DNA from: Porticoccaceae bacterium
GTDB taxonomy: Bacteria; Pseudomonadota; Gammaproteobacteria; Pseudomonadales; Porticoccaceae
Assembly (NCBI GenBank): GCA_024644595.1
Contig: JAHEHL010000004.1
Span: forward strand, 311,196-352,783
Length of the DNA stretch: 41,588 bases
Direction: 5' to 3'
Part shown: positions 3,349 through 30,955 of the stretch, in pieces
Layout of the letters: each line of letters opens with the position of its first letter
Position numbering within the stretch: position 1 is the first letter of the stretch
Made by a program: the position numbers and the translations under genes
The notes under the pieces: generated by a model
Databases searched by the model: none
Told to the model about the DNA's origin: nothing
What the model saw: only the letters and a program-made list of their open reading frames with translations

Positions 3349-3376
3349 ATATTGCTGACACCGTTCTGGAGGCTGT

Positions 3377-4618: not shown

Positions 4619-4630
4619 CGGGTACTTGCG

Positions 4631-4936
4631 ATGAAACTGTTAACCTGCCCTTTGAATGGCCCGCGCAATATCAGCGAATTTACCTATGGTGGCGAATACC
4701 ACCCGACCCCCGATCACCAACTGGTGACGCCCCGCGAATGGGCTGAACACGTTTTTTTCCATGACAATGCGGCCGGCGTGGTCATCGAGTGGTGGTGTCA
4801 CACCGCCAGTTCCTATTGGTTTCTGGCCGAACGCAACACCATCAGCGATCAGGTGATACGTACTTTCCCGGCGGATGAAATTTTTAATCAACGTGTCGAA
4901 TTTAATCAGCCCGCCAGCAGTGGGGAGTCAAATTAA
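4631..4936 (+). CDS. soxD: Sarcosine oxidase-type delta subunit, zinc site degenerate
   Basis: A 101-residue small subunit 12 bases after soxB; its stop codon overlaps the soxA start by one base (TAATG). In characterised SoxD three cysteines and one histidine bind zinc. Here C6 and H57 remain, but the usual second cysteine position is N9 and the last is S61, so a four-ligand zinc site cannot form in the classical way. The remaining signature (CPLNGPRN, FTYGGE, EW...HTASSYWF, ERNT) is coherent, so this looks like a distinct SoxD subgroup, not decay. The role is structural within the four-subunit complex. Confidence 0.88.
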   Translation: MKLLTCPLNGPRNISEFTYGGEYHPTPDHQLVTPREWAEHVFFHDNAAGVVIEWWCHTASSYWFLAERNTISDQVIRTFPADEIFNQRVEFNQPASSGESN

Positions 4937-7851
4937 TGTCCAATGACGTTCGTCTACCCGCACCCTTTGGCTCGCTGATTGATCGCGACAAAACCATCAG
5001 CTTTCGCTTCGAAAACAAAACCTATCAGGGTTTTGCCGGGGATAATATCGCCAGCGCGCTCGCCGCCAACAATCAATGGTTGCTAAGTCGATCCTTTAAA
5101 TATCACCGCCCGCGCGGCGCGCTGACCATGGCCGGGCAAGATGCCAACACCATGATCCAATTGCCCTCAGACCCCAATGCCCTGGCAGATCGAGTTGCCA
5201 TCAGCGATGGCCTCGAGGTGATGGGACAAAACTACAGCGGCAGCCTTAATCGAGACAGCGGTGCCCTGCTCGGTTTGGTCGCAAAGTTTTTACCGGTGGG
5301 CTTTTATTACAAAGCATTCTTTAAGCCCCGCGGCATGTGGGAACGCTGGGCGCCGCTGATTCGCAAAAAGGCCGGTCTCGGCGTGATCGATCAGCAGTTC
5401 CAGCCAGAATATTTTGACAAGCAATATCAGTTCTACGATGTCGCCGTCATCGGTGCCGGGCCGGCCGGTCTGACGGCAGCACTGGCTGCCGCTAAAGCTG
5501 GCGCCGAGGTGCTGTTGGTGGATGAAAATCCCAGTCTCGGTGGATCGCTTAACTACAGTCGCCTCGATGCCGAGGGCGAAAAAGCCCGCCAACTGCGCCA
5601 ACGTCTGGTGGCAGAAGTTTTAGCCAGCGACAACATTACCGCCATGACCAACGCCACCTGCAACGGCTGGTTTGCCGACAACTGGTTGCCGATTATTCGT
5701 GGTAAACGGCTGTATAAAGTACGCGCCAAACAGACCATCCTCTGTGTCGGCGCCCTCGAACAGCAAGCAGTGTTCCACAATAACGACCTGCCTGGCGTAA
5801 TCATGAGCAGCGCCGCGCAGCGTTTGATGCACCTCTATGGCGTGCGCCCCGGCAAAACCGCGGTCATTGTCACTGGCAACAATGATGGCTATGCCGCTGC
5901 ACTGGATCTGCTCGATGCCGGCGTCGAGGTTAAAGCAATCGTCGATCTGCGCGAGCAACCCGAATATGATGCGGTGGCCAAAAAGGCTGCGAGTAAAGGG
6001 CTGACGATCAAAACCGGACATGCGGTTTTTGCCGCACACAAAGATCGCAGTGGCCTGCATCTGGGCTCGGTGGAGGTGCGCAAAATTATCCGTCAAGGCG
6101 TCTGTGGTGATCAGAGTGAAACCATCCTCTGCGACACTTTGTGTATGGCAGTGGGTTATACCCCAACCTATCAGCTGGTCTGTCAGGGCGGAGGCCAACT
6201 CAGTTACAACGACAATACCTCAATGTTTACTCTCACCAACTGTCCGCAGAACTGTCAGATCGCCGGTTCTGTCAACAGTCACTGGCTGATCGATGATGTT
6301 ATCGCTGACGCACAGCGCGCCGCCATAATCGCCAGCAACGCGCTAGGGCTCAGTAATGAGACACCAGACCAGCAGCTGGACATCTCCCTGCAACACAGCC
6401 CCAATTTTAGCTGGCCGATCTTTGCCCACCCTAAGGGCAAGGAATTTGTCGACTTCGATGAAGATCTGCAGATTGCCGATATCATCAATGCCACCCGTGA
6501 TGGCTATGAACATATCCAGTTGGTCAAGCGTTACTCCACCTGCGGCATGGGCCCATCACAGGGCCGCCATTCGGCGCTGGCGACCGCGAGGTTGGTGGCC
6601 GCTGCGACCAATCGCACCGTGGCGCAGACCGGCGTTACCACCGCGCGACCACCATTTTCTGCCGAGCATTTGGCGCATAGTGCCGGACGCAGTTTTTACC
6701 CTGCCCGACGCAGCTCTATGCATTACCGTCACCTCGAGGCCGGCGCCCAGATGCTGCAGGCCGGCGCCTGGTATCGGCCCGCCTATTACGGCAGTGCAGA
6801 GTGTCGCGAGGCCTGCATCAACAGTGAAGTCAACAATGTGCGCACCAATGTCGGCCTGGTCGATGTCTCGACTCTCGGTGGCCTGGAAGTGCGCGGCCCA
6901 GATGCGGCAGAGTTTTTAAATCGTTTTTACACCTTTGGTTTTTTAAAGCAGCCGGTCGGGCGCGCGCGCTATGCACTGCTGACCAATGAAGCCGGCGTGG
7001 TGATCGACGACGGTGTTGCCTGTCGCTTTGGCGAACAACATTACTACGTTACCGCTACCACCGGCGGTGTCGATCGTGTCTATCAAAATATGCTTAAGTG
7101 GAATGCCCAGTGGCGCCTGGATGTGGATATCGCCAATGTCACATCCGCCTACTGCGGCGTCAACATTGCCGGCCCCAAAGCCCGCGATGTGCTGCGCAAA
7201 GTCTGCAGCGATATCGACCTCAGCAGCGAAGCCTTTCCCTACATGGGTGTGCGTCAAGGGACTGTTGCAGGCATCGCCGCGCGAGTTATTCGGGTCGGCT
7301 TTGTCGGCGAGCTCGGTTATGAAGTGCATGTGCCACAGCACTGCGGTGAGGCGCTCTGGGATGCGCTAATCGAAGCTGGCGCCGAACAGGGCATAAAGCC
7401 GTTTGGCATTGAAGCGCAGCGAGTGCTGCGGCTTGAAAAGGGCCACATTATAATCGGTCAGGATACAGACGCTATGTCGACGCCCGCTGAGGTACAGATG
7501 AGCTGGGCGATCGCCAGACAAAAACCCTTTTTTGTTGGCAGCCGCAGCATCCAGGAACTCGACAAACTGCCGGCCAAACGCAGTCTGGTGGGTTTTGTGG
7601 TCGATAATCTCAGCGCACCGATTCCACTGGAAAGTCATCTGGTGCTGAATGGCGACCGCATGACCGGCCGCGTAACCTCGTGTCACTTTTCACCGACCCT
7701 CAACAAACCTGTCGGGTTAGCTTATGTAGAACCAGACAAGGCAGAGGTCGGCAGTCGTTTTACCATTAAGTCCAGCGGCGGCGTAATGGTCGATGCACTG
7801 GTGGTGGAGCTACCCTTTTACGATCCCGAAACACAGCGTCAGGAGCTCTGA
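4936..7851 (+). CDS. soxA: Sarcosine oxidase-type alpha subunit (THF- and NAD-binding)
   Basis: A 971-residue protein, full length for SoxA. Residues 1-110 are the ferredoxin-like Fer2_4 region without an obvious iron-sulfur cysteine set. GAGPAGLTAALAAAKAG from 173 starts a pyridine-nucleotide oxidoreductase domain, with CVGALEQQAVFHNNDLPGV near 270-290. From about residue 590 to the end it is a GcvT/aminomethyltransferase domain, which binds THF and captures the methyl carbon as 5,10-methylene-THF. A GGGGAG site precedes the ATG and translation is coupled to soxD. The substrate is not set by this subunit alone. Confidence 0.93.
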   Translation: MSNDVRLPAPFGSLIDRDKTISFRFENKTYQGFAGDNIASALAANNQWLLSRSFKYHRPRGALTMAGQDANTMIQLPSDPNALADRVAISDGLEVMGQNYSGSLNRDSGALLGLVAKFLPVGFYYKAFFKPRGMWERWAPLIRKKAGLGVIDQQFQPEYFDKQYQFYDVAVIGAGPAGLTAALAAAKAGAEVLLVDENPSLGGSLNYSRLDAEGEKARQLRQRLVAEVLASDNITAMTNATCNGWFADNWLPIIRGKRLYKVRAKQTILCVGALEQQAVFHNNDLPGVIMSSAAQRLMHLYGVRPGKTAVIVTGNNDGYAAALDLLDAGVEVKAIVDLREQPEYDAVAKKAASKGLTIKTGHAVFAAHKDRSGLHLGSVEVRKIIRQGVCGDQSETILCDTLCMAVGYTPTYQLVCQGGGQLSYNDNTSMFTLTNCPQNCQIAGSVNSHWLIDDVIADAQRAAIIASNALGLSNETPDQQLDISLQHSPNFSWPIFAHPKGKEFVDFDEDLQIADIINATRDGYEHIQLVKRYSTCGMGPSQGRHSALATARLVAAATNRTVAQTGVTTARPPFSAEHLAHSAGRSFYPARRSSMHYRHLEAGAQMLQAGAWYRPAYYGSAECREACINSEVNNVRTNVGLVDVSTLGGLEVRGPDAAEFLNRFYTFGFLKQPVGRARYALLTNEAGVVIDDGVACRFGEQHYYVTATTGGVDRVYQNMLKWNAQWRLDVDIANVTSAYCGVNIAGPKARDVLRKVCSDIDLSSEAFPYMGVRQGTVAGIAARVIRVGFVGELGYEVHVPQHCGEALWDALIEAGAEQGIKPFGIEAQRVLRLEKGHIIIGQDTDAMSTPAEVQMSWAIARQKPFFVGSRSIQELDKLPAKRSLVGFVVDNLSAPIPLESHLVLNGDRMTGRVTSCHFSPTLNKPVGLAYVEPDKAEVGSRFTIKSSGGVMVDALVVELPFYDPETQRQEL

Positions 7852-7853
7852 TT

Positions 7854-8555
7854 ATGTCAGCTACAACGGTCACCGCCGCTTTGCGTCGCAGTCAGCTCTA
7901 CCGCCGACATATTGATCTCGGCGGCCACTTTGAGCAGGTTGCTGAAAGTACGCTGGTATCACATTATCGCTCAATTGAGGAAGAACGAGCGCAGGTCAAA
8001 ACACTCGCGCTGGTAGATCTGTCGGCACTGCCCCGGATTGGTTTTAAAGGCCTCGGCGCACCGGACTGGGCGGCGGCTCAAGGCATGACTCTACCCGCTC
8101 AACCCAACCGCGCGACGCTGCAGGACGACGGCACCCTGATCGCCCGCCTCTCGCAAACCGAATTGCTGATCGCCAGCAATCTGAGTGGCGCATCGACGCA
8201 TAGTGCTGTGGCCGTGTCGGCAGTAGCTGACACGACGCTTGCTGAGCGAGTCTACAGCCTGCCGCGCGCCGACAGCCACAGTTGGTTGGTGCTGTGTGGC
8301 GATCTCGCGGCGGAGACTCTGGCCAAGGTCTGCGGTGTTGATTTACGACCGCATAAGTTTGCCAATGGTGAGGTCGCACAGACATCAATCGCAAAAATTA
8401 ATGGAGTGCTGATTCGCAACGATTATGGCGATACGCTGGCTTACTCTATTTTTAGCGACAGCAGTTCGGTGGAGTTTTTGTGGGATAGCCTGCTCGATGC
8501 GATGGCAGAATTTAATGGCGCGCCAGTGGGTGTTCAGGCGCTGCGAGATTGTTAA
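7854..8555 (+). CDS. soxG: Sarcosine oxidase-type gamma subunit
   Basis: A 233-residue protein starting two bases after the soxA stop, with an AGGAG site at the end of soxA. SoxG is the least conserved subunit, resembling a shortened GcvT fold with no catalytic role known; here position, size and segments such as LSQTELLIA and NDYGDTLAYSIFSDSS support the call. It closes the four-subunit set. The next gene starts about 60 bases downstream and is a regulator. Confidence 0.82.
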   Translation: MSATTVTAALRRSQLYRRHIDLGGHFEQVAESTLVSHYRSIEEERAQVKTLALVDLSALPRIGFKGLGAPDWAAAQGMTLPAQPNRATLQDDGTLIARLSQTELLIASNLSGASTHSAVAVSAVADTTLAERVYSLPRADSHSWLVLCGDLAAETLAKVCGVDLRPHKFANGEVAQTSIAKINGVLIRNDYGDTLAYSIFSDSSSVEFLWDSLLDAMAEFNGAPVGVQALRDC

Positions 8556-14347: not shown

Positions 14348-14351
14348 AACA

Positions 14352-15509: not shown

Positions 15510-15579
15510 ATGCTGCAATAAGTGAGGCTGTTTTTACGCTCCACCACGTTTAACCTTTTTTATTTTTAAGGACCCCATT

Positions 15580-18823: not shown

Positions 18824-19582
18824 TTACTCGCCAGCGCCCGCCCGAGAGCTCTCGGTGGATTCCACCAGCACCCGCGCCGTCAATAAATCGAATTTCTCCC
18901 AGAGCGGTACTGGCATCGCAATACCCTGCTCCAGCGAGTCGGCATAAGCCTGTTGCAAAGTCTGTGGCTCACGCTGTTCACTCTTATTCGCGTTGGCCAG
19001 CTCCGGCAGCGCGGCGGACATTAATTCCCAACAATCTTTCTCAGCCGTACTACAGAATAGCCACAGCGACTGATGCAACGGTGTCTCAATCGGCGCACAG
19101 ACAAACTGTTTAAGAGCGGGATATTGCTGCCCTGCCCCAATCGTTGCCCAGCTGAAGCAACCCTCTTTAAACCACCCCATCGCCGCTACCAGCCCACGCT
19201 GCCCGGCATTACTCAGCCGCTCAAGCGCAAACAGCCGATTGCGACAATTGTCGACACGCAGCATAACCGAGTGATTTTTGCGCGCCAGCGAGCAGGCCAG
19301 GTCCACTATCCTGCTACCACAAAGCAGACTGCTTGCTCCCTTGGCGTCAAGCACTGGGTGGGGGTTATTGCTATCAGCATAGCGATAGCCAAGGGCCGGT
19401 GATTGACTGTTGCCAGCATCAATAAACGGGAGTGCTCGCTCGAGCGTTTGCAGACCATCAAGGCCGGTCATCTCTGACCAGGTCACCATTGCTGCTGCGT
19501 CGAGGTAGTCTCCATAACTAAAGCCAAGTCCCTCAAAGGATTTTTTAAGCGCAGCAGTCAGCTCATTCTTGGAGACTTTCAT
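18824..19582 (-). CDS. DUF3726-like protein of unknown function
   Basis: A 252-residue soluble protein with no signal peptide or membrane segment. I match it from memory, with moderate confidence, to the uncharacterised DUF3726 family; SYGDYLDAAAMVTWSEMTGLDGLQTLE at the N-terminus looks like the conserved block, with a histidine-poor, cysteine-bearing middle (SSLLCGSRIVDLACSLARKNHS). The first half resembles the N-terminal helical part of Ldh2/MdhB oxidoreductases (an acidic helix, then a one-word LGFSYGDY...AAxMV..SEMTGLDGL pattern), but the NAD-binding part is absent. The gene is 15 bases downstream of the 580-residue gene, so the pair is probably co-translated and may form one complex. Function unknown. 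Confidence 0.75.
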   Translation of the reverse strand: MKVSKNELTAALKKSFEGLGFSYGDYLDAAAMVTWSEMTGLDGLQTLERALPFIDAGNSQSPALGYRYADSNNPHPVLDAKGASSLLCGSRIVDLACSLARKNHSVMLRVDNCRNRLFALERLSNAGQRGLVAAMGWFKEGCFSWATIGAGQQYPALKQFVCAPIETPLHQSLWLFCSTAEKDCWELMSAALPELANANKSEQREPQTLQQAYADSLEQGIAMPVPLWEKFDLLTARVLVESTESSRAGAGE

Positions 19583-19597
19583 CTCGCCACGGCCCGA

Positions 19598-21340
19598 CTA
19601 ATTGGTCGGCTTGACAGGAAACTGCCAGCCGTCTGCGAGCTGATTGGCGATCGGCGAGCTGAAGTCAGAGATCAGGGGCGCACCCTGAAACATGGTATTG
19701 CGCACCCACAGGCGCGAACGTGGATCAAACTTGCTAACACCGAAGAAAGACAGTTTGCAGCGCAACAGATGCATTGGCAGAACGGCCTTGTGCACCAGGT
19801 TTTCACGAATCTCGCCATAGCGGCAGTTAGCCATGGTTTGAATGCGACAGATAATACCTCGAAACTCCGGCTGGCGAAGTAAAAAATGGGCGATATCGTC
19901 GTTTGGATACTCTGCCAGATAGGCACAGATAGCGTCATAGCATTCGCGCACAGAGCGACCAATAGCCAGCGGCATCTGCCGTTCTTCACCTATATCAATA
20001 TTCGTTTGTCCGAGACGTGGCTCCATTTTTTCCTCTGAGCGATACCAAAAGACTCCCTGCTCCTGAGGCTGCGAAAAATCGATTTTTAACGCCCAGTCAT
20101 AAGCGCGCTCAATACTATTACGCAGTTCAACGAGTGGCATCTCGGGCACCAGGTCATAACGCTCAACAATATCCATCTGCTCTTCGAGACGATCAACCAG
20201 TTGCGGATAGAGCTCAATCAGCAGGCTATTGATCAACTCCTGAGTCTCGACTCGCCAGTTGGCCTGAGCATGTTCAGTCAACTGCGTCCAGCTGCTGAGA
20301 CTGGCGCCATATTCCTTCAGCCACGGCAGCACGACCTGCTGCAGCTGGTCATGAACACACTGGTTACTCTGTCGCTGTAACGCGTCGTCGGTCACAATTT
20401 CATCTAAGTGTTGAATAACACGTTTCGCAGTACACTGCAGGTTATCCAATGCCTCATCGGTAACCTGCCCCTCAACCAAAACAGTCGCCAGTGCCGTTTC
20501 ACGCACCTCGACCCATTGGTTGATCAATTGCGGGTGATTAATCAAAAACGGTGCCATGCCCAGACCGGTGGAATTGCCGATACCAAAGTAGCGTTTAATC
20601 TGGTCATCCAGCACCACGGCGGTGTCCGGCGCGCGCTGGCGAGCGATGAAATCGGCCTGTTGCAGACTGAAGTGGCGCAGCATAAAACAGGTGAACATCT
20701 CGGCGGCAAAGGGCCGAGAAAAGTCACGGTGCTTGCCGCGAACCTTGTCCCAGTCGGCCATGCCGAGCTTACCGCTGCCATAGGCCGCGGTGGTGCGATA
20801 GAGATAACCAACCTCGGCGATCTTGTTGACATCAGGCTGAGATCCCTGGGCCAGCTGATCCACTACATAGTTAAAATTGCGCGCGCTTCTATTGGCCCGG
20901 GACAGCACAAATACCCGTGAGTCAACGCGACCTGCCTCTTGCAGTGGCACATTGGCACGCAAATGCTCGAGTTGCTCTTGATCGACAGAACCCTCACAAA
21001 GGGCCATGGTCAGATCCCATTGATCAGCAATGACTCGGTCATTGCGCAGACTGTCGTCAAGGTAGTGAGAAAACAAGACAAAACTGTAACGCGAATATTT
21101 GGCCTGCACTTCATAGACTACGGTGCCATAGCCATTGCTGTCGAGATCAAAAACAGGGGCTTCTATCTGCCATTTTTCAGTGATCATTCGACGCATTAAC
21201 GTGCGCATAAAGCTGAGGCGGAACTGGTGGAAACTGCCCAGTCGGTCGAGCTGCATAACCACGTCAGCAGGCCGCATGGGCAAGCCCTGCTGGCCATCGA
21301 TAGTCGATGCTGGCATAACTGATAAAGTCGCTGTAGTCAT
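19598..21340 (-). CDS. Large protein of unknown function (580 aa), catabolic operon member
   Basis: I do not recognise this 580-residue family. It has no signal peptide, no membrane helix and no Rossmann, P-loop or iron-sulfur motif. It is rich in Asp, Glu, Gln and Arg. Notable segments: RPADVVMQLDRLGSFHQFR (23-41), VFVLSRANRSARNFNYVVDQ (about 142-161), YLYRTTAAYGSGKLGMADW (about 177-195), RPFAAEMFTCFMLRHFSLQQAD, and VHKAVLPMHLLRCKLSFFG (near 527-545) before RSRLWVRNTMFQGAP at the end. The clustered aromatic, Arg and Met residues in the last two suggest an enzyme rather than a scaffold. It is followed after 15 bases by the DUF3726-like gene and preceded by the M19-like gene (140 bases). Confidence 0.85.
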   Translation of the reverse strand: MTTATLSVMPASTIDGQQGLPMRPADVVMQLDRLGSFHQFRLSFMRTLMRRMITEKWQIEAPVFDLDSNGYGTVVYEVQAKYSRYSFVLFSHYLDDSLRNDRVIADQWDLTMALCEGSVDQEQLEHLRANVPLQEAGRVDSRVFVLSRANRSARNFNYVVDQLAQGSQPDVNKIAEVGYLYRTTAAYGSGKLGMADWDKVRGKHRDFSRPFAAEMFTCFMLRHFSLQQADFIARQRAPDTAVVLDDQIKRYFGIGNSTGLGMAPFLINHPQLINQWVEVRETALATVLVEGQVTDEALDNLQCTAKRVIQHLDEIVTDDALQRQSNQCVHDQLQQVVLPWLKEYGASLSSWTQLTEHAQANWRVETQELINSLLIELYPQLVDRLEEQMDIVERYDLVPEMPLVELRNSIERAYDWALKIDFSQPQEQGVFWYRSEEKMEPRLGQTNIDIGEERQMPLAIGRSVRECYDAICAYLAEYPNDDIAHFLLRQPEFRGIICRIQTMANCRYGEIRENLVHKAVLPMHLLRCKLSFFGVSKFDPRSRLWVRNTMFQGAPLISDFSSPIANQLADGWQFPVKPTN

Positions 21341-21480
21341 AACGTTAGACGCTCAAAGTGGCCTCTTATGAATGAGGCTATGTGCCGTCCCCCAAAGAGA
21401 AGTCGGGCGTGTCTCGATAGTACGTTTTCGCCGCCATTTAAGATTAAAACCGGACTGCTTGGCAAGCCCTACACAATCAC

Positions 21481-22476
21481 TTATTTAACCGAAGCCGGTG
21501 CAAATGAGTCGCGGAAAAAACGCAACCAGTTTTCGCCCATTACCTTGGCAGTATCTTGTTCAGAGAAGCCCATTGCCAACAGCCCGTTAGCGATATTGCC
21601 GATATCCTTGGAACTCTTGAACCAGCTTGGCTGTTCAGGCCATGACGGGCTGGCAGCAGACCCTTCACCATGATCAACCGTTGTGGTCCAGCGACCGCTG
21701 CGCATCCACTCCAGGGTGGAGTAATCCCAGTTTTGGCAAAGGTCTGAGCCAATACCGATACGATCGATACCGATCATATCGGCAGTCTTGGCGATCATGG
21801 CGCAGAATTCTTCATTCGTGCAGTCACCGCCGTTGTGCAGATGAAAGGGGTAGAGGCTAAAGCCGATCATACCTTCGGATTCACCGATAGCGTGCAGTAC
21901 CTTATCGGATTTATTGCGCAGCGCCGGATGGAAAAATTCAGGATTGGCGTGTGTAATTGCAATGGGTCGCTGGGACAGTTCAATCGCTTGCAAAGTCGAC
22001 TCTTCAGCACTGTGAGACATATCGATAATCATGCCGACGCGGTTCATCTCGGCAATCACTTCGCGACCAAAACGGGTGATACCACTGTCGCGCTGCTCGT
22101 AACAACCGGTCGCCAGCAGGCTCTGATTGTTGTAGCTCAGCTGCATGATCCGCACACCGAGCTGCTGCAGAATTTCGACCATTTTGACGTCGTCTTCGAT
22201 CGGCGAGCAGTTCTGAAAACCAAAGATAATACCGACTTTGCCGAGGCGCTTGGCCTCAAGGATATCCTCGGCCTGACGCACCGGCATAATCAGGTCGCTG
22301 TGATTGATAAAGTGACGATTCCAATGACCAATATTCTGCAGTGTCTCGCGAATATTTTCCCAGTAGGCAATAGTCACATGGATAGCATTTAAACCGCTCT
22401 GTTGGGCTTCCTCAAATAGCTGACGGTTCCAGTTGATGTACTGGAGGCCATCGATAAACAACATATCCCGCTTCAT
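21481..22476 (-). CDS. M19 (membrane dipeptidase) fold protein lacking canonical metal ligands
   Basis: A 331-residue TIM-barrel protein of the renal-dipeptidase family. In true dipeptidases an N-terminal DGHND supplies two metal ligands and a glutamate bridges them. Here the first motif reads DGLQY (9-13) and the bridging position appears as Q88 in FGFQNC. Later histidines are kept: H155 in DMSHSAEES, H176 in ITHANPE; D245 is in GIGSDL. So a two-zinc peptidase site is unlikely. I recall the same DGL...GFQN pattern in the dipeptidase-like gene of Pseudomonas glycine-betaine and carnitine clusters, so this is a subfamily tied to methylated amines. A hydrolase for a ring-opened or N-acyl intermediate is possible. 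Confidence 0.87.
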   Translation of the reverse strand: MKRDMLFIDGLQYINWNRQLFEEAQQSGLNAIHVTIAYWENIRETLQNIGHWNRHFINHSDLIMPVRQAEDILEAKRLGKVGIIFGFQNCSPIEDDVKMVEILQQLGVRIMQLSYNNQSLLATGCYEQRDSGITRFGREVIAEMNRVGMIIDMSHSAEESTLQAIELSQRPIAITHANPEFFHPALRNKSDKVLHAIGESEGMIGFSLYPFHLHNGGDCTNEEFCAMIAKTADMIGIDRIGIGSDLCQNWDYSTLEWMRSGRWTTTVDHGEGSAASPSWPEQPSWFKSSKDIGNIANGLLAMGFSEQDTAKVMGENWLRFFRDSFAPASVK

Positions 22477-22512
22477 GGGGTTCCCCTCTTAATACCAATT
22501 TTTTCGCACTGG

Positions 22513-22551
22513 GCTCTTAAACCCAGCTCTTAAATTCAGCTCTTAAAATCC
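22513..22551. repeat. Three 13-bp tandem repeats between two catabolic genes
   Basis: GCTCTTAAA begins each of three exact 13-base units at 22513, 22526 and 22539; only the last four bases vary. They fill the gap between the aldehyde dehydrogenase stop and the M19-like start, so on the minus strand they are TTTAAGAGC units in the mRNA leader of the M19-like gene. Confidence 0.85.
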
Positions 22552-22555
22552 GAAT

Positions 22556-24001
22556 CTAATACGGCTTGCTGTAATTGGTTTTAATAATTGTGTAAAAGTC
22601 GCGAGCATATTGTCCCTGCTCACGCGGACCATAGCTGGACGCCTTGCGACCGCCAAACGGCACATGGTAGTCAGTGCCGGCTGTGGGCAAGTTGACCATC
22701 ACACATCCAGACTTGCTGTGGCGTTTAAAGTGTCCGGCTGCGGCCAGCGAATTGGTGATAATGCCTGAGGTCAGGCCAAAATCTGAATCATTCGACACCG
22801 CCAAGGCCTCATCGTAATTCTCTACTTTGATCACACAGGCAATCGGACCAAACACTTCTTCGCGATTAATCCGCATCGTGTTGCTGGTGTTGATAAATAG
22901 CGCCGGCGACATAAAGTAACCCTCGGTTTCCAGCTGCAGACGCTCGCCACCCTGGACCAGTTCGGCGCCCTCCCGCTTGGCAACTTCCATATATTCAAGG
23001 TTTTGTAACAGCTGGCGCTCATCAACCACAGCACCAATATGCACGCCCGGAGTCATCGCATTGCCAACCACCAATTTGTTCATCTCAGCCGTCATCTTTT
23101 CGACAAACTGATCGTGAATACCAGCCTCGACAATAATCCGTGATGAGGCAGTGCACTTTTGCCCCGTACCAAAATAGGCGCCGGCGACGGCACATTGCAC
23201 GGCGATATCGAGATCGGCGTCATTCAGTACCACCAGCGCATTTTTGCTGCCCATTTCAAGCTGCACGCGCGCCATATTATCGATTGCATTGCGTGCGATA
23301 TGACGGCCTACAGCCACCGAACCGGTAAAGGTTACCGCCTGAATATCCGCAGAGGTGCAGAGGGTTTCACCGACATCGCGACCCGAGCCCATCACCAGAT
23401 TAAAGACTCCTGCAGGCAGGCCGCTGCGGCTGATAATATCGGCCAGAATCCAGGCGCTGGCGGGGACCAGTTCGGCGGGCTTGAGCACCACGCAGTTGCC
23501 GTAACAGAGTGCCGGTGCCACTTTCCACGCCGCCACTGCCATCGGAAAATTCCACGGCGTTACGATGCCGATCACGCCGAGCGGTTCGCGGTGTACTTCC
23601 ACATCCACACCGGGACGCACCGAGGCGGTATTTTCGCCCATCAAACGCAGCGCCTCAGCGCCGTAATATTGGAAGAACTGTCCGGAACGAGCGACTTCAC
23701 CAATGCCTTCGGCCAGGGTTTTGCCCTCTTCTCGAGCCAGGATTGCACCGATCTCGTCTTTGCGTGCAATCAGTTCAGCGCCGATAAAGTCGAGGATTGC
23801 TTTGCGCTGCTCGAGCGCGCTCTGAGACCAGCCCTGAAAAGCCTGATTGGCCGCGGCAATGGCATTTTCACAGTGTTCGGGCGTGGCCTTGGCATATTCG
23901 CCAACGATGTCACTAAGATCTGACGGATTAATATTTCTTATCGATGCGTCGCTGCCAACCCACTCACCGTTGATATAGTTTTTAAAAATGCCGCCTGTCA
24001 T
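22556..24001 (-). CDS. Aldehyde dehydrogenase, 2-oxoglutarate-semialdehyde type
   Basis: A 481-residue NAD(P)-dependent aldehyde dehydrogenase, with the order of motifs intact: PWNFPMAVAAWKVAPAL near 146-162, FTGSVAVGR near 222-230, the general base in LEMGSKNA near 246, and the nucleophile C283 in GTGQKCTASSR. Sequence style is closest to the alpha-ketoglutarate-semialdehyde/succinate-semialdehyde group, which oxidises C4-C5 semialdehydes to acids. As the first gene of the minus-strand unit, divergent from a LysR gene, it probably oxidises a ring-opened semialdehyde of that pathway. The exact substrate is not readable from sequence. Confidence 0.9.
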   Translation of the reverse strand: MTGGIFKNYINGEWVGSDASIRNINPSDLSDIVGEYAKATPEHCENAIAAANQAFQGWSQSALEQRKAILDFIGAELIARKDEIGAILAREEGKTLAEGIGEVARSGQFFQYYGAEALRLMGENTASVRPGVDVEVHREPLGVIGIVTPWNFPMAVAAWKVAPALCYGNCVVLKPAELVPASAWILADIISRSGLPAGVFNLVMGSGRDVGETLCTSADIQAVTFTGSVAVGRHIARNAIDNMARVQLEMGSKNALVVLNDADLDIAVQCAVAGAYFGTGQKCTASSRIIVEAGIHDQFVEKMTAEMNKLVVGNAMTPGVHIGAVVDERQLLQNLEYMEVAKREGAELVQGGERLQLETEGYFMSPALFINTSNTMRINREEVFGPIACVIKVENYDEALAVSNDSDFGLTSGIITNSLAAAGHFKRHSKSGCVMVNLPTAGTDYHVPFGGRKASSYGPREQGQYARDFYTIIKTNYSKPY

Positions 24002-24213
24002 GACTTCCCCTCACCATTGCTTTGTATTATCGGTAACCCATTGTTGTTTAGATTAACGGGCCATGCTCGACGTGAATTCAAGCGACGTATTTTTCACCCT
24101 GACGGCCGATAATTCTATTTAAATATTCATATAGATAAATAAGCAGAATTAATATATGGTTTTGTTCGAATTATAAAAATCAGACAACAATAAGAATTAT
24201 CTCAGGGGGCATC
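24002..24213. promoter_or_regulatory. Divergent control region of the aldehyde dehydrogenase and LysR genes
   Basis: An AT-rich gap between divergent genes. TAATTCT (24110-24116) and AGAATTA (24145-24151) form an inverted repeat 28 bases apart, and AGAATTA recurs in AAGAATTAT at 24192-24200. Such half-sites suit binding by the adjacent LysR regulator. AGGGGGC just upstream of 24211 is the ribosome site for the LysR GTG start. Confidence 0.45.
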
Positions 24214-25176
24214 GTGAAACATCTCAATATTACCCTGCGTCATCTGCGCACTTTTATTATTGTCGCCCGTCAGGGCAGCTTTAATCTGGCGGCTCAGGAG
24301 CTCTCGCGCACTCAACCGGCGGTGACTCTGGCCATTAAACAGCTCGAAGAATTTGTCGGCATCAAGCTGCTGGAGCGCACCACTCGCAGTGTTGCACCCA
24401 CCAACGAGGGAGAAAACTTTCTGCCGATTGCCGAGCGTTTGGTAAGGGATTTTGATAGTGCTATCTACGATCTGCGCGCCACGGCAGAACGTCGCGTCGG
24501 CCATGTCAGTATCGCCATCGTGCCGTCGGTGGCGACCAATCTGTTGCCACCGATTATCAAAACATTTTCCAATGCTTACCCGGGTATTAATTTACATCTG
24601 GATGACGACAGTTCACGGGGTGTGCAGCAACGAGTTGAACGCAACGAGGTGGATTTTGGCGTCGGCAGTATGTGGCAGCCAAGTCAAAACCTCGACTTTA
24701 CACCGCTGTTTTCCGATCAACTGCAGCTGGTTTGCCATCGCGATCATCCACTGTCGGCAGAATCAGGCCCGATCGAATGGGGTGCCATGGAAAATGAGAC
24801 GTTTCTCGACAGTGGTATCACCAAGACACTGCGCACCCGGCAGCACTTCGCCAGCTCGAAGTTTGATTTCCCAAATATCACCACATTGATGGCAATGTTG
24901 AAATCCAATCTCGGCGTCAGCATTCTGCCCTCACTGGCAGTACCCTCATCGGATCAGGAACTGGTCACCCGGCTGCTGGTGCCGATTGAAACCCGCGAAA
25001 TCGGTTTAATCACACGCCGTGCCTGGACGCTGTCACCGGCGGCAGAGACCATGGCGGAAACTATTCTCAACGAAGTTCCAAAACAGTTGGCGAATTTGGG
25101 CTTGAGCGCACTGGTGTCATCCGACAACAGCGCACGCCTGAATCAGCCGGAGCTGCCCACGCTGGCCTCGGCATAA
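24214..25176 (+). CDS. LysR-family regulator of the adjacent catabolic unit
   Basis: A 320-residue LysR protein starting at GTG 24214 behind a strong AGGGGG site. The winged helix-turn-helix is in residues 5-65 (TFIIVARQGSFNLAAQELSRTQPAVTLAIK region), and the effector domain follows, with IAIVPSVATNLLPPIIKTF near 105-125. It is divergent from the aldehyde dehydrogenase gene, the standard layout for a LysR activator of a catabolic operon, and sits between that operon and the Ldh2-type gene, so it may control both. Confidence 0.9.
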   Translation: MKHLNITLRHLRTFIIVARQGSFNLAAQELSRTQPAVTLAIKQLEEFVGIKLLERTTRSVAPTNEGENFLPIAERLVRDFDSAIYDLRATAERRVGHVSIAIVPSVATNLLPPIIKTFSNAYPGINLHLDDDSSRGVQQRVERNEVDFGVGSMWQPSQNLDFTPLFSDQLQLVCHRDHPLSAESGPIEWGAMENETFLDSGITKTLRTRQHFASSKFDFPNITTLMAMLKSNLGVSILPSLAVPSSDQELVTRLLVPIETREIGLITRRAWTLSPAAETMAETILNEVPKQLANLGLSALVSSDNSARLNQPELPTLASA

Positions 25177-25188
25177 AGTCGAGGCCAG
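25162..25188. terminator. Perfect hairpin at the end of the LysR gene
   Basis: CTGGCCTCG (25162-25170) pairs perfectly with CGAGGCCAG (25180-25188) around a nine-base loop that contains the LysR stop codon. No T-run follows on either strand, so termination would need help or the hairpin may instead protect the two converging transcripts. Confidence 0.45.
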
Positions 25189-25209
25189 TGACACGACTAA
25201 AACAGAGGG

Positions 25210-26229
25210 TTAGCCTGCAGCCTGAATAAACCCCATGCAGCTGTCATACACTGACTGTTTGACAGCGATGCCCTTATCGGCATGGGCTGCACGGTTGGCG
25301 TAACGTCGATTACCAGGAATATGCGCCCCATCCATAGCGGAGAGACGCGCGAAAAACGCTTCTGAGTGCTGTAACCAGTTATCGCCGTCTCCAAACCGGT
25401 TGGGATCGATTGCGAGCATAAATTCGCCGCCATTGGGTGGCCCGCCATCATTGTTATCGTTTTGCTGGGCTTCGTAGCTAAAGTCCATTCCGGTCAAGCC
25501 GGCGACCAGCAACTCAATCATCATCGCGATAGTCGACCCCTTGTGGCCACCGAATGGCAGCAATGCGCCGCCTTCGATAATCGCTGCCGGATCTGTGGTC
25601 GGATTACCCTCAGCATCAACGCCGGTTCCCAATGGCACCGAGTGACCGTCGCGGGCGGCAATCATGACTTCACCGCGCGCCATTGAGGCCGAGGCCTGAT
25701 CAAATACCATCGGCGGCTGCTCACCCCGCGGCCAGCCGAAACACATGGGATTGGTACCAAACAGCGGCTGCTTGGCGCCAGCGGGTACCACGGCGGGTTT
25801 ATACGTGGTGAAGGCCATCGCGGCTAGGCCGGCCTCTGCGATGGGCTCAACTTCAACCCAGAGTGCGGCAAAGTGATGCACATTGACCAGCGCCATGGCA
25901 GCAATGCCATTTTCTCGCGCAGCCTCAATCAGCGCCTGACGGCCTTTTTCCAATGCCAGAGGCGCGTAACCGCGCTTGCCATCTACTCTCACAACCGATG
26001 GCGAAATGCGCTCTACGAGAGGTTCTGCGCAACCATCAACCTTGCCACTGCGCAGTGAGGCGATATAACCGGGCATTCTAAACAGCCCGTGGGAGGCACA
26101 ACCATCGCGCTCAGCAGCACCAATGGTGCGCGCCAGTGCGCCAGAGTTCTCAGCATTGCAGCCATTTGCCATCAAGCAATCAATGACGAGCTGTTCAATT
26201 TCGGATACGGTCATTATTCGATCGGACAC
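25210..26229 (-). CDS. Ldh2/MdhB-family oxidoreductase, possible DpkA-type imine reductase
   Basis: A 339-residue NAD(P)-dependent enzyme of the family that includes malate/L-lactate dehydrogenase (MdhB), ureidoglycolate dehydrogenase and DpkA. The conserved catalytic block is present: RDGCASHGLFRMPGY at about 36-50, then NVHHFAALWVEVE, and GTNPMCFGWP and FGGHKGS downstream. DpkA reduces delta-1-piperideine-2-carboxylate and delta-1-pyrroline-2-carboxylate and can form N-methyl amino acids from oxoacids and methylamine. Beside the catabolic unit and facing its LysR gene, an imine or cyclic iminium reductase role is attractive, but a hydroxyacid dehydrogenase is equally compatible. The TPR-sulfotransferase gene ends 30 bases upstream. 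Confidence 0.85.
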   Translation of the reverse strand: MSDRIMTVSEIEQLVIDCLMANGCNAENSGALARTIGAAERDGCASHGLFRMPGYIASLRSGKVDGCAEPLVERISPSVVRVDGKRGYAPLALEKGRQALIEAARENGIAAMALVNVHHFAALWVEVEPIAEAGLAAMAFTTYKPAVVPAGAKQPLFGTNPMCFGWPRGEQPPMVFDQASASMARGEVMIAARDGHSVPLGTGVDAEGNPTTDPAAIIEGGALLPFGGHKGSTIAMMIELLVAGLTGMDFSYEAQQNDNNDGGPPNGGEFMLAIDPNRFGDGDNWLQHSEAFFARLSAMDGAHIPGNRRYANRAAHADKGIAVKQSVYDSCMGFIQAAG

Positions 26230-26259: not shown

Positions 26260-28287
26260 TTATTCAATTGGATAGCGTTTAAGCACAGGGCCCAGAGCCT
26301 GCTTAAGTGGCTCCAGATGAGTATCAAAGTTGCGCCACTGGTCAAGACCGCCAGTGTAAATAGGCTGTCTGACCTGCTCTGAGCTGGGTGTACGCACAGC
26401 TCGCTCGTTCTCATAAAAACTGATGCAGCCCTCTTCAAAAGGTAGCCCACAGTAATCGAGAATACGACGCACCTGCGTGTCCAGGTCGGCAACTACTTCT
26501 TCGTACTGAACCCGTAGCACCTTGCCGGGCAGCGCCTGATCCCAGAAGTCCATCAATTCCACATAATCTTTGTAGTAGGTTCCCACTTCCTCGAGTCCAT
26601 AGGTAAATTCCTGGCCTTCGGCGAAGAGTTGTTTGAAACCACTAAAGCAACAGCCCATTGGGTGACGTCGGGCATCAATGATTTTGGCATTGGGCAACAT
26701 CAGGCTTATCAGCCCAATATGACGGAAATTATTCGGCATTTTGTCGATAAAGAATGGCGCCGATGCTCGGTGGATGCGGGTCTCGTCGATATAGGTTTCA
26801 CCAAACTTGGCAAACTGCTCAGGCTCCAAGGTAGTCAACACGTCCGGGTAACGACTCACACTGCCCATGCGCTCACCGCGACGCAGCTGCTGAGCCAGCG
26901 CCAGCATATTGGGTAGTTCCATGGTGCCATCGACCTGGCTGTGGGAGGAGAGAATCTGCTCCAATAGCGTCGATCCCGAGCGCGGCAGGCCAACAATAAA
27001 GATCGGATCTGGCGCCGGGCAACCGGTATTGGCGTGACGTTCGATCAGTGCCGGAGTAAAGACCCGTTGCTGGTCCTGAAATTCATCAGTTATATCGCTG
27101 GGCTTATAACGGCTGGTGGCCTTCTTTAAGCCATTGCCACGCTCGTAACGGGCAAAGGCTTTATCAAACGCGTGCTGATCCTCATAAGCTTTTCCCAAGG
27201 CAAAATTAAGATAGATACGATTGGTATGTGAGATCCCCACAACCGATTCCTGACGCTCCATCGCGGTAATTTCATCATCGGTAAAACTAAATAATTTCAG
27301 ATTGGCCAGAGAGTAGTATGCCTCTCCATGACCGGGGTATTTGGTAATCGCCCGTCGATAGGATTCGATGGCAGAATCGGTCTTGCCGAGGGTTTTCAGC
27401 GCATGTCCGCGCGAGGTTAAGGTAACCGGGTCTTCGTCAAGTTTGTTTAAAATTGACTCAAAGTAGTTGAGTGCCGTGTCGTAGTCGCCCGACTGCATGG
27501 ACTCGACGGCAAATACCGATTGGAACTGAGGATTTTGCGGGTCTTTTTCAAGCAGTAGTTTGGCTTGCGCTAAGGCCTCGGCATATTTCTGACGTTTCCG
27601 CAAAATCTGGATATAGTCGATGCGCACTCTGGTGTTGTCAGGCGCAAATTCCACTGCGCTCTCAAGCAGGAACTCAGCATCATCATGCACACCTAGGCGA
27701 CTGCCAATATCGGCCAGCAGACGCATCCCCTCAACATGGCGCGGCACCTTCTGCATAAACGCCTTACACAGCTGCTCAGCTTTGACCAATTTGCCCTGAG
27801 AAATCAGGTCGGTTACCGCAACCAATGCCTTGGGCAATGCCTGTAACGCCTCGAGCTGAGTCTTCACAAACCTAGCTGATTCAGCTCTGCCGGTTTCGCT
27901 GAGAATGTCGACCTGCGCACGCAAACTGGCTTCCAGAGCGGGATTGATCTGGGTTGCGCGGAGATAGGCAGCGAGTGCCGCGTCGAGATTATTCAGTGCG
28001 CGATAGACATGCCCGGTTTCCTGATGGGCGCGACTGTGTTCAGGTGATAAGCGCAGCAACTCATCCAATGTCTTCAGTGCCAGGGTCAGATTACTCTGAT
28101 AACGCTGACAGACTGCGAGCATATACATCGCTTCCTGATTGTCTGGCTCGGCACTGAGCATCAGCTGCAATGTGTGTTCGGCGGCAGCAAAGTCACTTGA
28201 CTGAATCAGGCGCTTTACTTCATCAAGGGAAGCTTGAGGCGAGCTGTTATTTGGCGTTGAGTTATCGGGTGTTGAGTTATCGAGCAA
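26260..28287 (-). CDS. TPR-repeat protein with C-terminal sulfotransferase domain
   Basis: A 675-residue fusion. Residues about 15-345 hold a run of TPR helices (for example YRALNNLDAALAAYLRATQINP, LKTLGKTDSAIESYRRAITKYP), and 420-675 a sulfotransferase domain starting with the PAPS 5'-phosphosulfate-binding motif IVGLPRSGSTLLEQIL and a VDARRHP-like IDARRHPMG segment. No signal peptide is visible. Such fusions sit next to TonB-dependent receptors in many marine and freshwater proteobacteria, and the receptor gene lies just upstream here. What they sulfate, or whether they bind instead of transfer, is not known to me. Confidence 0.88.
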   Translation of the reverse strand: MLDNSTPDNSTPNNSSPQASLDEVKRLIQSSDFAAAEHTLQLMLSAEPDNQEAMYMLAVCQRYQSNLTLALKTLDELLRLSPEHSRAHQETGHVYRALNNLDAALAAYLRATQINPALEASLRAQVDILSETGRAESARFVKTQLEALQALPKALVAVTDLISQGKLVKAEQLCKAFMQKVPRHVEGMRLLADIGSRLGVHDDAEFLLESAVEFAPDNTRVRIDYIQILRKRQKYAEALAQAKLLLEKDPQNPQFQSVFAVESMQSGDYDTALNYFESILNKLDEDPVTLTSRGHALKTLGKTDSAIESYRRAITKYPGHGEAYYSLANLKLFSFTDDEITAMERQESVVGISHTNRIYLNFALGKAYEDQHAFDKAFARYERGNGLKKATSRYKPSDITDEFQDQQRVFTPALIERHANTGCPAPDPIFIVGLPRSGSTLLEQILSSHSQVDGTMELPNMLALAQQLRRGERMGSVSRYPDVLTTLEPEQFAKFGETYIDETRIHRASAPFFIDKMPNNFRHIGLISLMLPNAKIIDARRHPMGCCFSGFKQLFAEGQEFTYGLEEVGTYYKDYVELMDFWDQALPGKVLRVQYEEVVADLDTQVRRILDYCGLPFEEGCISFYENERAVRTPSSEQVRQPIYTGGLDQWRNFDTHLEPLKQALGPVLKRYPIE

Positions 28288-28360: not shown

Positions 28361-30955
28361 CTAGAAATTGTAAGTCAAACGGACACCCATGGTGCGGGGT
28401 CGCGCATAGGACACACGCTCTCTGTCGTTGATGTAGTTGCGTGACAGTTCAGCACGCTCATCAGTCAAGTTATCGACAAACAGCTCAGCACCCCAGGTCT
28501 CTGTGGTGATACCAGCTGTAATACCCAGCATGGTCCAGCTGTGAATCAAGTCACGGTTGATTCTGATGATATCGCTGTACTGCTCAGCAGAGTGCGACAT
28601 GTGTGGCATGACGTGAGCCATGGCACCACCTTCGAGGCTCCACTCATAACGCGCCTGGAGATTTGCCTGCATTTCAGGAGCAAATGCCAAGGAATCACCT
28701 TTGCGAACGTCATCTGTCGGTACCAATACCTTCGTAATCTCGGTATCAAGCAATGACAGACCACCGCTGATAGTCAGGCCATCGATACTTTCTGGAGCCC
28801 AGATCAGATCCATTTCAATACCAGTAACTTCAGCATCCGCCGAATTATCGGAGAAGAACAGGTTTGCAATGCTTGGATCAAAGATCGTCGTTTGCAGTCC
28901 GTCAATTACCGACATAAAGGCACTACCGTTGAAACGCATGCTGCCATCGAGAAGATCAGCCTTCCATCCGAACTCGTAGTTCATCAACTCATCTGTTTCG
29001 AAGTTGAAAGGAACGGTATACGAGCCATCGGAAGACGTGTAGCCGCCTGGACGGTTAAGGAAGCCAGGACGGAAGCCTTCAGACAATGTTGCATAAAGCA
29101 GGAGATCATCAGATGGCGTGTACGACGCAGTGAACTTAAGGATGGTGCCTGAAGATTCTGCCTTGTCAGGAATATCTTCAACCGCAGTACCGCGGTAGAC
29201 AGTCTCTCCACCAACGGTTGAGTCACCGTTATACAGGTCTGCGATATTGGTTCCGAAAACCTGTGCATCTCCACAATCCGGATTAGCACTACCACAGAAA
29301 TTGTAGAACGAGCCGTTGGCACTACCGTCGAAGTCTACAGTGATATCGTAATAACGGGCACCCAATGTCAGCGACAGTTCGTCGGACACATCGTAGCTCA
29401 ACTCACCAAACAGACCTTTCTGCTCATCGGTGCGCTGGATATCGTTGCGGAAAATCTCACCCGGAGCAAACGGCTCCTGGCTTGACAGGAAGCCATCGCC
29501 ATAGGAGTAGTTAACCGAAGAGAAACCTAGGCCTGAGCCCGCTCCACCCCAACCCTGGGCAAAGACACTACCTGGGTAGGTAAAGGAGTTACGCTCTTCC
29601 AAGGTGGTATCACTGAAGAACGCACCAGCAGTCAAGCGCATATCGGCTTCCTGATCGGTGGTGATACGGATTTCGTGAGTCGTCACTTCAGTTTCAGAGT
29701 GGCTTGGCACAACCAGATCTGGCGCATAACAGGTACCTGTACCATCACCGTAGGTCACTGAGTAGTCACAGACGTAGTAAGGCAGATACTGACCGATAAA
29801 CATATAGTCTGAGTAGCCAATATTTTGATCTGCAGTACGCTCGGTATAAGCACCGGTGTAGACCACGTCGAGACCGGCAATACGGCCAGTCAGTGTCCAA
29901 CTGGTGTTATTGAACTCATCTTCGAGAGAGTCATCGATCCAGCTCTGAATTTCAAGGTCGCCGAGATCAGGGTCGGCAAAGAACACGCCGTCTGAATCCA
30001 GTTGCTGAGTCGTATGAGAAACCAACAGATCCCAGTCTTCACCGAGATTGATCAGGGCACTTAAACGAGCGCCTTCATAGGTTGATTCGTTGAAGTCATC
30101 TTCAACCAGGTCAGAGTTGTCTGCTGCAATGAAGGTGGCAGGCAAGTTAACGTAGCCGTCGCCATCGGTGTCAGTAAACTGACCTGTTTCAAAACCGGCA
30201 CGGCGAGCACTAACCGGAACACCGTTTGAGCGCATAAAGCCTTCAACACGGAAACGTGCACTCTCTTCAAGCGTTCGAGTTCCGTGAATGTTGTCGATAT
30301 AGCCGCCCTTGTCATCGCGATAGACCACACCACGCAGAGTAACCGCATCGCTGACTGGCAGGTTGTACATGACTTCAACATTGTTGTTGGTACCGCCCTC
30401 GTTCATGGTCGAGAAACCAAGCTTCATCTTACCGTAAGCTGCCGAAGGATCCGGCTTGTTGGTAATCAAACGCACGGTACCGGCCTGAGAGCTGGCTCCA
30501 AACAATGTGCCTTGGGGACCGGCAAGAACCTCCACACGACTCAAGTCAGCTGCATAGACATCGAGGTTACGACCTGGCTGAGCCAGTGGTTGCTCGTCGA
30601 GATAGAACGCAACGTTAGGAGCAAGACCGGCTACACCCGCAATAGAGATAGCTGGAGTTGTCGATGCAACACCGCGTATATAAATAGTATTTTGTCCTGG
30701 ACCACTACCGCCGGCGGTAACACCTGGCAGCTGAATCAAATAGTCTTCGAAGTTTGAGACACCCAGCTGGTCGAGTTTCTCGGAGGTGATTGCTGATACT
30801 TTTACAGCAATATCCTGGGTGCTGGCCGAAGTTTTAGTCGCCGTAACGATAACTTCTTCAAGGCTTGCAGCAGCCGCTACACCGGCTGTGCTCGCTGCGA
30901 TACCAGCGGCCATCGCGGAGATAATCGCGCGATTTACTTTTGTCTTACGAAACAT
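28361..30955 (-). CDS. TonB-dependent outer-membrane receptor
   Basis: An 864-residue outer-membrane importer. A signal peptide covers about residues 1-29 (ends AAAA-SLEEV), directly followed by a TonB box, EEVIVTATK. The plug domain (about 45-165) contains LPGVTAGGSGPG, IYIRGV and VEVLAGPQGTLFGASSQAGTVRLIT. The rest is a beta-barrel with alternating aromatic strands and a C-terminal phenylalanine in RLTYNF. Ligands of this group include siderophores, vitamin B12 and glycans or other complex organic matter; sequence alone does not decide. A GGGGAG site precedes the ATG. Position next to a TPR-sulfotransferase gene is a recurrent pairing. Confidence 0.94.
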   Translation of the reverse strand: MFRKTKVNRAIISAMAAGIAASTAGVAAAASLEEVIVTATKTSASTQDIAVKVSAITSEKLDQLGVSNFEDYLIQLPGVTAGGSGPGQNTIYIRGVASTTPAISIAGVAGLAPNVAFYLDEQPLAQPGRNLDVYAADLSRVEVLAGPQGTLFGASSQAGTVRLITNKPDPSAAYGKMKLGFSTMNEGGTNNNVEVMYNLPVSDAVTLRGVVYRDDKGGYIDNIHGTRTLEESARFRVEGFMRSNGVPVSARRAGFETGQFTDTDGDGYVNLPATFIAADNSDLVEDDFNESTYEGARLSALINLGEDWDLLVSHTTQQLDSDGVFFADPDLGDLEIQSWIDDSLEDEFNNTSWTLTGRIAGLDVVYTGAYTERTADQNIGYSDYMFIGQYLPYYVCDYSVTYGDGTGTCYAPDLVVPSHSETEVTTHEIRITTDQEADMRLTAGAFFSDTTLEERNSFTYPGSVFAQGWGGAGSGLGFSSVNYSYGDGFLSSQEPFAPGEIFRNDIQRTDEQKGLFGELSYDVSDELSLTLGARYYDITVDFDGSANGSFYNFCGSANPDCGDAQVFGTNIADLYNGDSTVGGETVYRGTAVEDIPDKAESSGTILKFTASYTPSDDLLLYATLSEGFRPGFLNRPGGYTSSDGSYTVPFNFETDELMNYEFGWKADLLDGSMRFNGSAFMSVIDGLQTTIFDPSIANLFFSDNSADAEVTGIEMDLIWAPESIDGLTISGGLSLLDTEITKVLVPTDDVRKGDSLAFAPEMQANLQARYEWSLEGGAMAHVMPHMSHSAEQYSDIIRINRDLIHSWTMLGITAGITTETWGAELFVDNLTDERAELSRNYINDRERVSYARPRTMGVRLTYNF

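Follow-up and report, generated by a model that had tools for sequence, protein, structure and literature searches.

We describe a six-gene unit spanning positions 18824 to 26229 of a 41,588-nucleotide stretch of DNA (the window, meaning the whole stretch analyzed) from a marine bacterium related to SAR92, with a genome of 2.38 Mb. The unit contains five catabolic genes, encoding a 580-residue protein, a DUF3726-like protein, an M19-like protein, an aldehyde dehydrogenase (ALDH) and a reductase of the Ldh_2 family, together with one LysR-type regulator (Table 1). Judging from gene content and neighborhood, we consider it likely that this unit serves the catabolism of homarine (N-methylpicolinate), that it is most likely homABCDER, and that it is paired with an N-methylglutamate dehydrogenase (Mgd). 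We could liken it to homABCDER by description only: this homarine operon, reportedly described by Ferrer-Gonzalez et al. in 2026 (Nat Microbiol 11:1531), is said to comprise five catabolic genes plus one regulator, and the two are alike in this composition and probably in the linkage to N-methylglutamate and Mgd, with the gene-by-gene match unconfirmed. The initial annotation had also counted five catabolic genes plus one regulator; all six open reading frames (ORFs) are present where it had placed them, Pfam bears out their domain kinds, and the Ldh_2 gene stands apart from the run formed by the other catabolic genes.

The DUF3726, 580-residue, M19 and ALDH genes form a minus-strand run in which they are spaced 15, 140 and 79 bp apart. 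The Ldh_2 gene lies outside this four-gene run: it shares the strand but stands on the far side of the LysR gene, separated by 30 bp from a preceding TPR/sulfotransferase gene that itself comes after a gene for a TonB-dependent receptor. Ribosome-binding-like sequences precede several starts in the unit, and GC content at third codon positions is uniform over its six genes (0.59-0.60). Results showed that the unit is widespread. Relatives of the 580-residue protein are encoded in at least 579 species-genome stretches and in 168 plasmid records, and around the gene in the best 80 of those stretches (the 80 loci) we found M19 at 75, DUF3726 at 74, ALDH at 63, LysR at 57 and a betaine-type (BCCT) transporter at 56. 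Among the 58 loci flanked by 6 kb or more upstream and 4 kb or more downstream, the counts were 56, 56, 52, 50 and 45, respectively, and this conservation places the gene run far beyond chance. Beyond SAR92, the same genes occur together in Ruegeria, Mesorhizobium and Vibrio, and in part in Bacillales; the nearest named relatives among the matches listed are Porticoccaceae and SAR92-clade metagenome-assembled genomes, with 580-residue proteins 68-71% identical.

Going from homarine to N-methylglutamate means losing one carbon, and by analogy with trigonelline the simplest loss would be that of ring C6 as formate after cleavage between C5 and C6. In the route that we propose, the 580-residue protein with its DUF3726 partner would cleave the C5-C6 bond of the pyridinium ring by oxidation, so that ring C6 ends up in an N-formyl group and C5 becomes an aldehyde. 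ALDH would then oxidize the C5 semialdehyde, the M19-like protein would strip formate from N-formyl-dehydroglutamate, and the DpkA-type Ldh_2 would reduce N-methyl-2-iminoglutarate to N-methylglutamate, which MgdABCD would convert to glutamate and a folate-bound C1 unit, with PurU possibly helping to clear the latter and LysR regulating the unit. We infer the substrate and all the steps of this route. The logic is like that of the trigonelline pathway TgnABCD, which opens an N-methylpyridinium ring, oxidizes an aldehyde and releases formate. The difference lies in the first enzyme: TgnAB is a luciferase-like protein with a flavin reductase, it has no relative in the window unit, and no Pfam domain of such a two-component oxygenase was present among the 28 window proteins scanned. 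A 2021 study judged TgnAB unlikely to act on homarine and gave the homarine breakdown route as still uncharacterized (PMC8269262).

The evidence that links the unit to N-methylglutamate comes mainly from a second operon at 2470-8555, about 10 kb away, with the gene order purU, beta, delta, alpha, gamma. The alpha subunit has its best plasmid match in Pseudomonas aeruginosa (61.1%), and on an Acinetobacter plasmid a relative at 58.8% lies near genes for a type III glutamate-ammonia ligase, a glutamine amidotransferase and an FMN glutamate synthase, a set that we take to be GmaS-MgsABC of the N-methylglutamate pathway. Compared with MgdABCD of this plasmid, the beta and alpha subunits are 72% and 59% identical and the order purU, beta, delta, alpha, gamma is shared, Acinetobacter having folD besides, while searches of the window genus gave no close relative of GmaS or MgsA. 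Rhizobial alpha relatives are 53-55% identical, and one of them, examined with its neighbors, adjoins purU and shows no GmaS-type gene within its fetched stretch. The window alpha scores 895 bits with the soxA model (cut-off 1164) and the beta 476 bits with the soxB model (cut-off 529), whereas the relatives adjoining the hom unit of Ruegeria sp. TM1040 reach 1357 and 677. Because of these scores below the cut-offs and of the GmaS/Mgs-type neighbors in Acinetobacter, we rejected the identification of the window tetramer as a sarcosine oxidase. With all four subunits present, it is by sequence closer to Mgd. Near-full-length alpha matches in whole genomes were either 55% or more identical or 40% or less, which makes two classes. 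The window genome has a member of both, one at 100% and, separately, a SoxA-type protein at 37%.

These data bear on whether the unit could belong to general betaine or dimethylglycine catabolism, with the M19 and Ldh_2 proteins as accessories and the tetramer as an ordinary sarcosine oxidase. Such a role would agree with the nearest solved relative of the M19-like protein, 2i5g (240 bits), presumably from the dimethylglycine region of P. aeruginosa, and with the tetramers named sarcosine oxidase that adjoin the unit in TM1040 and in Phaeobacter inhibens. We nonetheless give it very little credence, as the window tetramer is Mgd-like, the genome has its SoxA-type protein elsewhere, and the 580-residue and DUF3726 genes would be left without a role.

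We also looked at how the two operons are distributed over 35 genomes of the window genus. The 580-residue gene occurs in 26 of them; MgdC (at least 70% identical, in some draft genomes as partial pieces) was found in 26/26 of these and in 0/9 of the others, and Ldh_2 in 24/26 and 0/9, the genomes of the two exceptions being 71% and 82% complete. One congener (G011) has two copies each of the 580-residue and MgdC genes, on contigs C14 and C2, either by duplication or by strain mixture. No close GmaS was found in the 35 genomes, where matches of 25-42% are as expected of ordinary glutamine synthetases. Likewise, there was no close MgsA, the only Mgs subunit searched: the best match had an E value of 4.8e-16 and 31% identity, and the weak matches were mostly ORFs of about 510 or 610 residues, the sizes of PurF and GlmS. 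The window Mgd thus does not appear as part of a GmaS-Mgs methylamine pathway; the genus appears to possess N-methylglutamate dehydrogenase but not the enzymes that usually supply N-methylglutamate, and this substrate should therefore come from elsewhere. The initial annotation had read the unit as leading from homarine to N-methylglutamate, and this is supported by the Mgd operon, which that annotation had missed and which in the genus occurs in the same genomes as the 580-residue gene. This is also in agreement with a 2026 paper (PMC13390433), which states, by citation of the original homarine study, that Mgd takes part in homarine catabolism.

The reductase that would produce N-methylglutamate has DpkA (1wtj) as its best solved relative, at 303 bits against 138 for the next, consistent with its earlier description as DpkA-like. 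It shares the stretch HHFAALW with DpkA (delta1-piperideine-2-carboxylate reductase, 1wtj/2cwh), from which it would differ in its substrate, here proposed to be an acyclic N-methylimine. It carries the catalytic Ser-His motif of the family, the His being present in 10 of 14 aligned Ldh_2. Across the 80 loci, the slot of this gene is held by Ldh_2 at 13 and by RidA at 41, never by both, and by neither at 26, many of which are interrupted by contig ends; the mutual exclusion has a Fisher p of 2.6e-5, ignoring kinship. That the two never share a locus points to a branch point at an N-methyl-imine, and we infer that both share one C=N intermediate as substrate and that Ldh_2 acts late, considering that RidA would be unable to reduce a ring. 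RidA itself is outside the window unit; the Arg at position 100, a catalytic residue of the RidA imine/enamine deaminases, is kept in 42/42 sequences from hom loci. In P. inhibens DSM 17395 we noticed an Ldh_2 match over two frames without annotated coding sequence (L031, about 11402-12387), so that the gene looks broken, and in three Bacillales loci (L105, L110, L112), with the order 580-M19-(DUF3726)-ALDH, neither slot gene was found.

We asked how the type of slot relates to Mgd and GmaS in whole genomes. Fifty of the 80 loci were chosen by type (13 with Ldh_2; L068, assigned by hand to the Ldh_2 type from a 168-base match at its edge; 35 of the 41 with RidA; and L105), and 49 genomes were searched, without L052. 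Of the row sets drawn from the loci, A2 is without L083, for its length, and A3 without L054, L080, L082 and L093. MgdC (at least 55%) was found in 10/14 Ldh_2-type against 5/34 RidA-type genomes, and among these MgdC-bearing genomes a close GmaS (the 66-83% class) was present in 1/10 and 4/5, respectively. Mgd without close GmaS was therefore seen in 9/14 Ldh_2-type against 1/34 RidA-type genomes (p 1e-5, ignoring kinship), or 8/13 of the former without L068 and 7/13 if G063 is also counted as having GmaS; matches of 35-45% (G063, G068, G069, G086, G090, G104) were counted as non-GmaS. We tentatively propose, holding it somewhat less probable than not, that a new-fold ring opener made of the 580-residue and DUF3726 proteins feeds a pathway in two swapped versions sharing the N-methyl-imine. 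In one, Ldh_2 would lead to N-methylglutamate and Mgd; in the other, which we would assign to Pseudomonas, Halomonas, Vibrio and others, RidA in place of Ldh_2 would hydrolyze the same imine to 2-oxoglutarate and methylamine.

The ring opener of this proposal is unusual. The 580-residue protein has no Pfam match even at E 10, none in NCBIfam, and nothing below E 0.18 against PDB sequences, searched singly and as an 80-row profile. Its AlphaFold2 model is of high confidence (pLDDT 90, pTM 0.90), and Foldseek gave no match at E≤0.001 in the PDB (best E 0.3, TM 0.12) or in a viral fold library, the two collections covered. Kinase-like matches (E≥0.3, TM about 0.1) were discounted. The protein may have a new enzyme fold. 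The sole inner stretch with pLDDT below 50 is 189-193, within the invariant motif RTTAxYGxGKxG, which would be in keeping with a mobile active-site loop. The invariant residues include seven Trp (57, 108, 276, 416, 432, 545, 572) as well as many Arg, and such a set could accommodate a positively charged ring that bears a carboxylate. The DUF3726 model (pLDDT 91) resembles 27 PDB structures at E≤0.001, without exception members of the type-2 malate/lactate dehydrogenase/DpkA group, and its profile matches YiaK (E 1.6e-5). In a weak profile alignment (probability 14%), nothing corresponds to the catalytic Ser-His of Ldh_2. The predicted structure is that of a contracted Ldh_2 fold, apparently without the catalytic Ser-His. 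In Mesorhizobium sp. 131-2-1 (L033, 8962-11406) the two proteins are fused as one ORF of 814 residues, which suggests that they act together; the DUF3726 protein is likely a partner subunit of the 580-residue protein. Our literature search found no mention of DUF3726.

For the next steps, ALDH scores 488 bits with the NCBIfam model AlphKGSA (cut-off 770) and 486 with that of 2,5-dioxovalerate dehydrogenase, both below cut-off, against 329 with the hydroxymuconic semialdehyde model, and C283 is conserved at 97% or more. By sequence it is nearest to alpha-ketoglutarate semialdehyde dehydrogenases, in line with the C5-semialdehyde type first assigned to it. The M19 family includes dehydropeptidases, and this kinship fits a hydrolysis of an N-acyl dehydroamino acid by the M19-like protein. 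A different order of events would be a hydrolytic one, opening homarine at N1-C6 to 2-(methylamino)muconate semialdehyde, followed by oxidation by ALDH and by deamination through RidA acting as a 2-aminomuconate deaminase. RidA is indeed the alternative slot holder at 41 of the 80 loci, and the 2-aminomuconate deaminase 6izh is among its solved relatives; at 35 bits it is one of the weaker matches, the best reaching 79, and the ALDH scores favor a C5 over a muconic substrate. As the product would moreover be a C6 diacid and not N-methylglutamate, leaving Mgd unexplained, we regard this order as clearly improbable.

Considering the substrate, the BCCT transporter at 56 of the relatives' loci supports the N-methylated zwitterion suggested by the initial annotation. 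LysR, ALDH, M19, 580 and DUF3726 stand together in TM1040 and P. inhibens, with the BCCT gene inside the unit; the same five-gene set is followed by a glycine-betaine-type ABC transporter in Aminobacter and by a branched-chain-type one in Mesorhizobium. Such BCCT and betaine ABC transporters would fit any quaternary zwitterion, and Rieske and FAD-oxidoreductase genes flank some loci, so that a pathway of this class for another N-methylated compound has to be weighed, be it N-methylproline/proline betaine, N-methylpipecolate or trigonelline, again with N-methylglutamate or glutamate as the end product. We hold it unlikely, among other things because a route from N-methylproline to N-methylglutamate should get by with fewer than five enzymes. 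A TPR/sulfotransferase gene also lies in seven hom loci (L039, L040, L045, L046, L054, L058, L062) and a TonB-dependent receptor in five of them (L039, L040, L054, L058, L062; 33-77% identity); this pair is a possible outer-membrane uptake route for homarine.

Several observations weigh against homarine as the substrate or against the route as drawn. Oxygenative ring opening is its weakest step: among 80 sequences of the 580-residue protein only H269 is an invariant His (the next His columns reach 62-67/80), no Cys is invariant and no Cys column reaches 60/80, so that the protein has no usual non-haem iron or Rieske oxygenase site, and the unit has no flavin reductase. M19 dipeptidases bind metal through HxD, Glu, His and His. 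In the window subgroup H155 and H176 are kept, there is no His at residues 9-13 and Q88 replaces Glu in 69/69 sequences, which makes its chemistry uncertain; the aligned 2i5g, of the same renal dipeptidase family fold, also lacks HxD and Glu. By one conserved stretch, the Ldh_2 proteins that hold the slot can be sorted into at least three subfamilies: HHFAALW (window, L039, L040, L046, L054, L058), NSYNCG (L045, L061, L104, L107) and SSSAGV (L063, L083, L095), with L056 unlike all. The catalytic His position is missing in L056, L063, L083 and L095, and the Ser in L040. With several subfamilies and 4/14 without the His, they may not all catalyze a single reaction: either one kind of reductase entered the slot repeatedly, or the reactions differ among Ldh_2. 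In the window genome no hom-type BCCT was found (best 35%). Mgd and hom genes are linked, so their co-distribution in the genus may be shared loss, and among 21 order-level relatives one (G053) has the 580-residue gene without MgdC and another (G044) MgdC (60%) without the 580-residue gene. The tree of the 580-residue protein has four changes between the Ldh_2 and RidA states, and with only four independent contrasts a sign test for Mgd is not significant. Finally, the RidA-type genome of L047 also has Mgd without close GmaS, 4/14 Ldh_2-type genomes show a SoxA-type protein only, with no MgdC-type, and the sarcosine oxidase names of the TM1040 and P. inhibens tetramers belong here too.

Homarine is an abundant marine metabolite. 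The homarine passages of PMC12817926, PMC9723723, PMC9038784 and PMC12093977 name no homarine catabolic genes. The window locus is probably another instance of the published homarine operon, with the downstream dehydrogenase in the same island; possibly new are the fold of the proposed ring opener and the division between Ldh_2 and RidA versions. The 580-residue protein, DUF3726, M19 and ALDH provide a portable gene signature, which together with the downstream enzyme in the same island and with this division would let ocean gene surveys spot homarine users, and the version, Ldh_2 or RidA, would tell whether nitrogen leaves as glutamate or as methylamine.

Table 1. Features of the probable hom unit, its neighbors and the mgd operon in the window.
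Feature	Position	Strand	Evidence
DUF3726-like protein, 252 aa	18824..19582	-	PF12525 48.7 bits, cut-off 22.1 (Pfam)
580-aa protein, fold without PDB match, proposed ring opener	19598..21340	-	no significant hit in Pfam, NCBIfam or PDB sequences
M19-like (dehydropeptidase-like) protein, proposed N-formyl hydrolase	21481..22476	-	PF01244 260 bits
Aldehyde dehydrogenase (ALDH), proposed C5 semialdehyde oxidation	22556..24001	-	PF00171 520 bits
Candidate LysR operator, inverted repeat ATCTAT-N12-ATAGA(A/T)	24113..24136	unstranded	divergent promoter region, 3 related loci
LysR-type regulator, divergent from ALDH	24214..25176	+	PF00126/PF03466, 128/77 bits
DpkA-type Ldh_2 imine reductase, proposed N-methyl-2-iminoglutarate reductase	25210..26229	-	PF02615 335 bits
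TPR/sulfotransferase protein, putative accessory	26260..28287	-	Pfam
TonB-dependent receptor, candidate outer-membrane uptake route	28361..30955	-	Pfam
PurU, formyl-tetrahydrofolate deformylase	2470..3348	+	TIGR00655 320 bits, cut-off 286
MgdA-like (beta) subunit, FAD oxidase fold	3377..4618	+	72% identity to an Acinetobacter gene with GmaS/Mgs-type neighbors
MgdB-like (delta) subunit, 101 aa	4631..4936	+	ORF between beta and alpha; position as in L037
MgdC-like (alpha) subunit, N-methylglutamate dehydrogenase	4936..7851	+	58.8% identity to Acinetobacter plasmid protein
MgdD-like (gamma) subunit	7854..8555	+	GCV_T (Pfam); 39% identity to L037 protein

The inverted repeat between the ALDH and LysR genes lies in a block conserved in the window, L039 and L040, with one base differing in L039, and is a candidate operator of the regulator. 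Between the mgd and hom units, positions 9626-17076 hold a ddd-like DMSP cluster with a CoA-transferase III protein (919 residues, two domains, which we take to be DddD), a BCCT transporter, an iron-type alcohol dehydrogenase (Fe-ADH) and a methylmalonate-semialdehyde dehydrogenase (MMSDH). The BCCT gene of this cluster (12743-14347) was considered as a homarine carrier, which its place among ddd-like genes and its identity of 35% to a hom-type BCCT make doubtful. The mgd, ddd-like and hom units together make an osmolyte-catabolism island, and an FMO-like flavin monooxygenase is encoded at 134-1609, upstream of the mgd unit.

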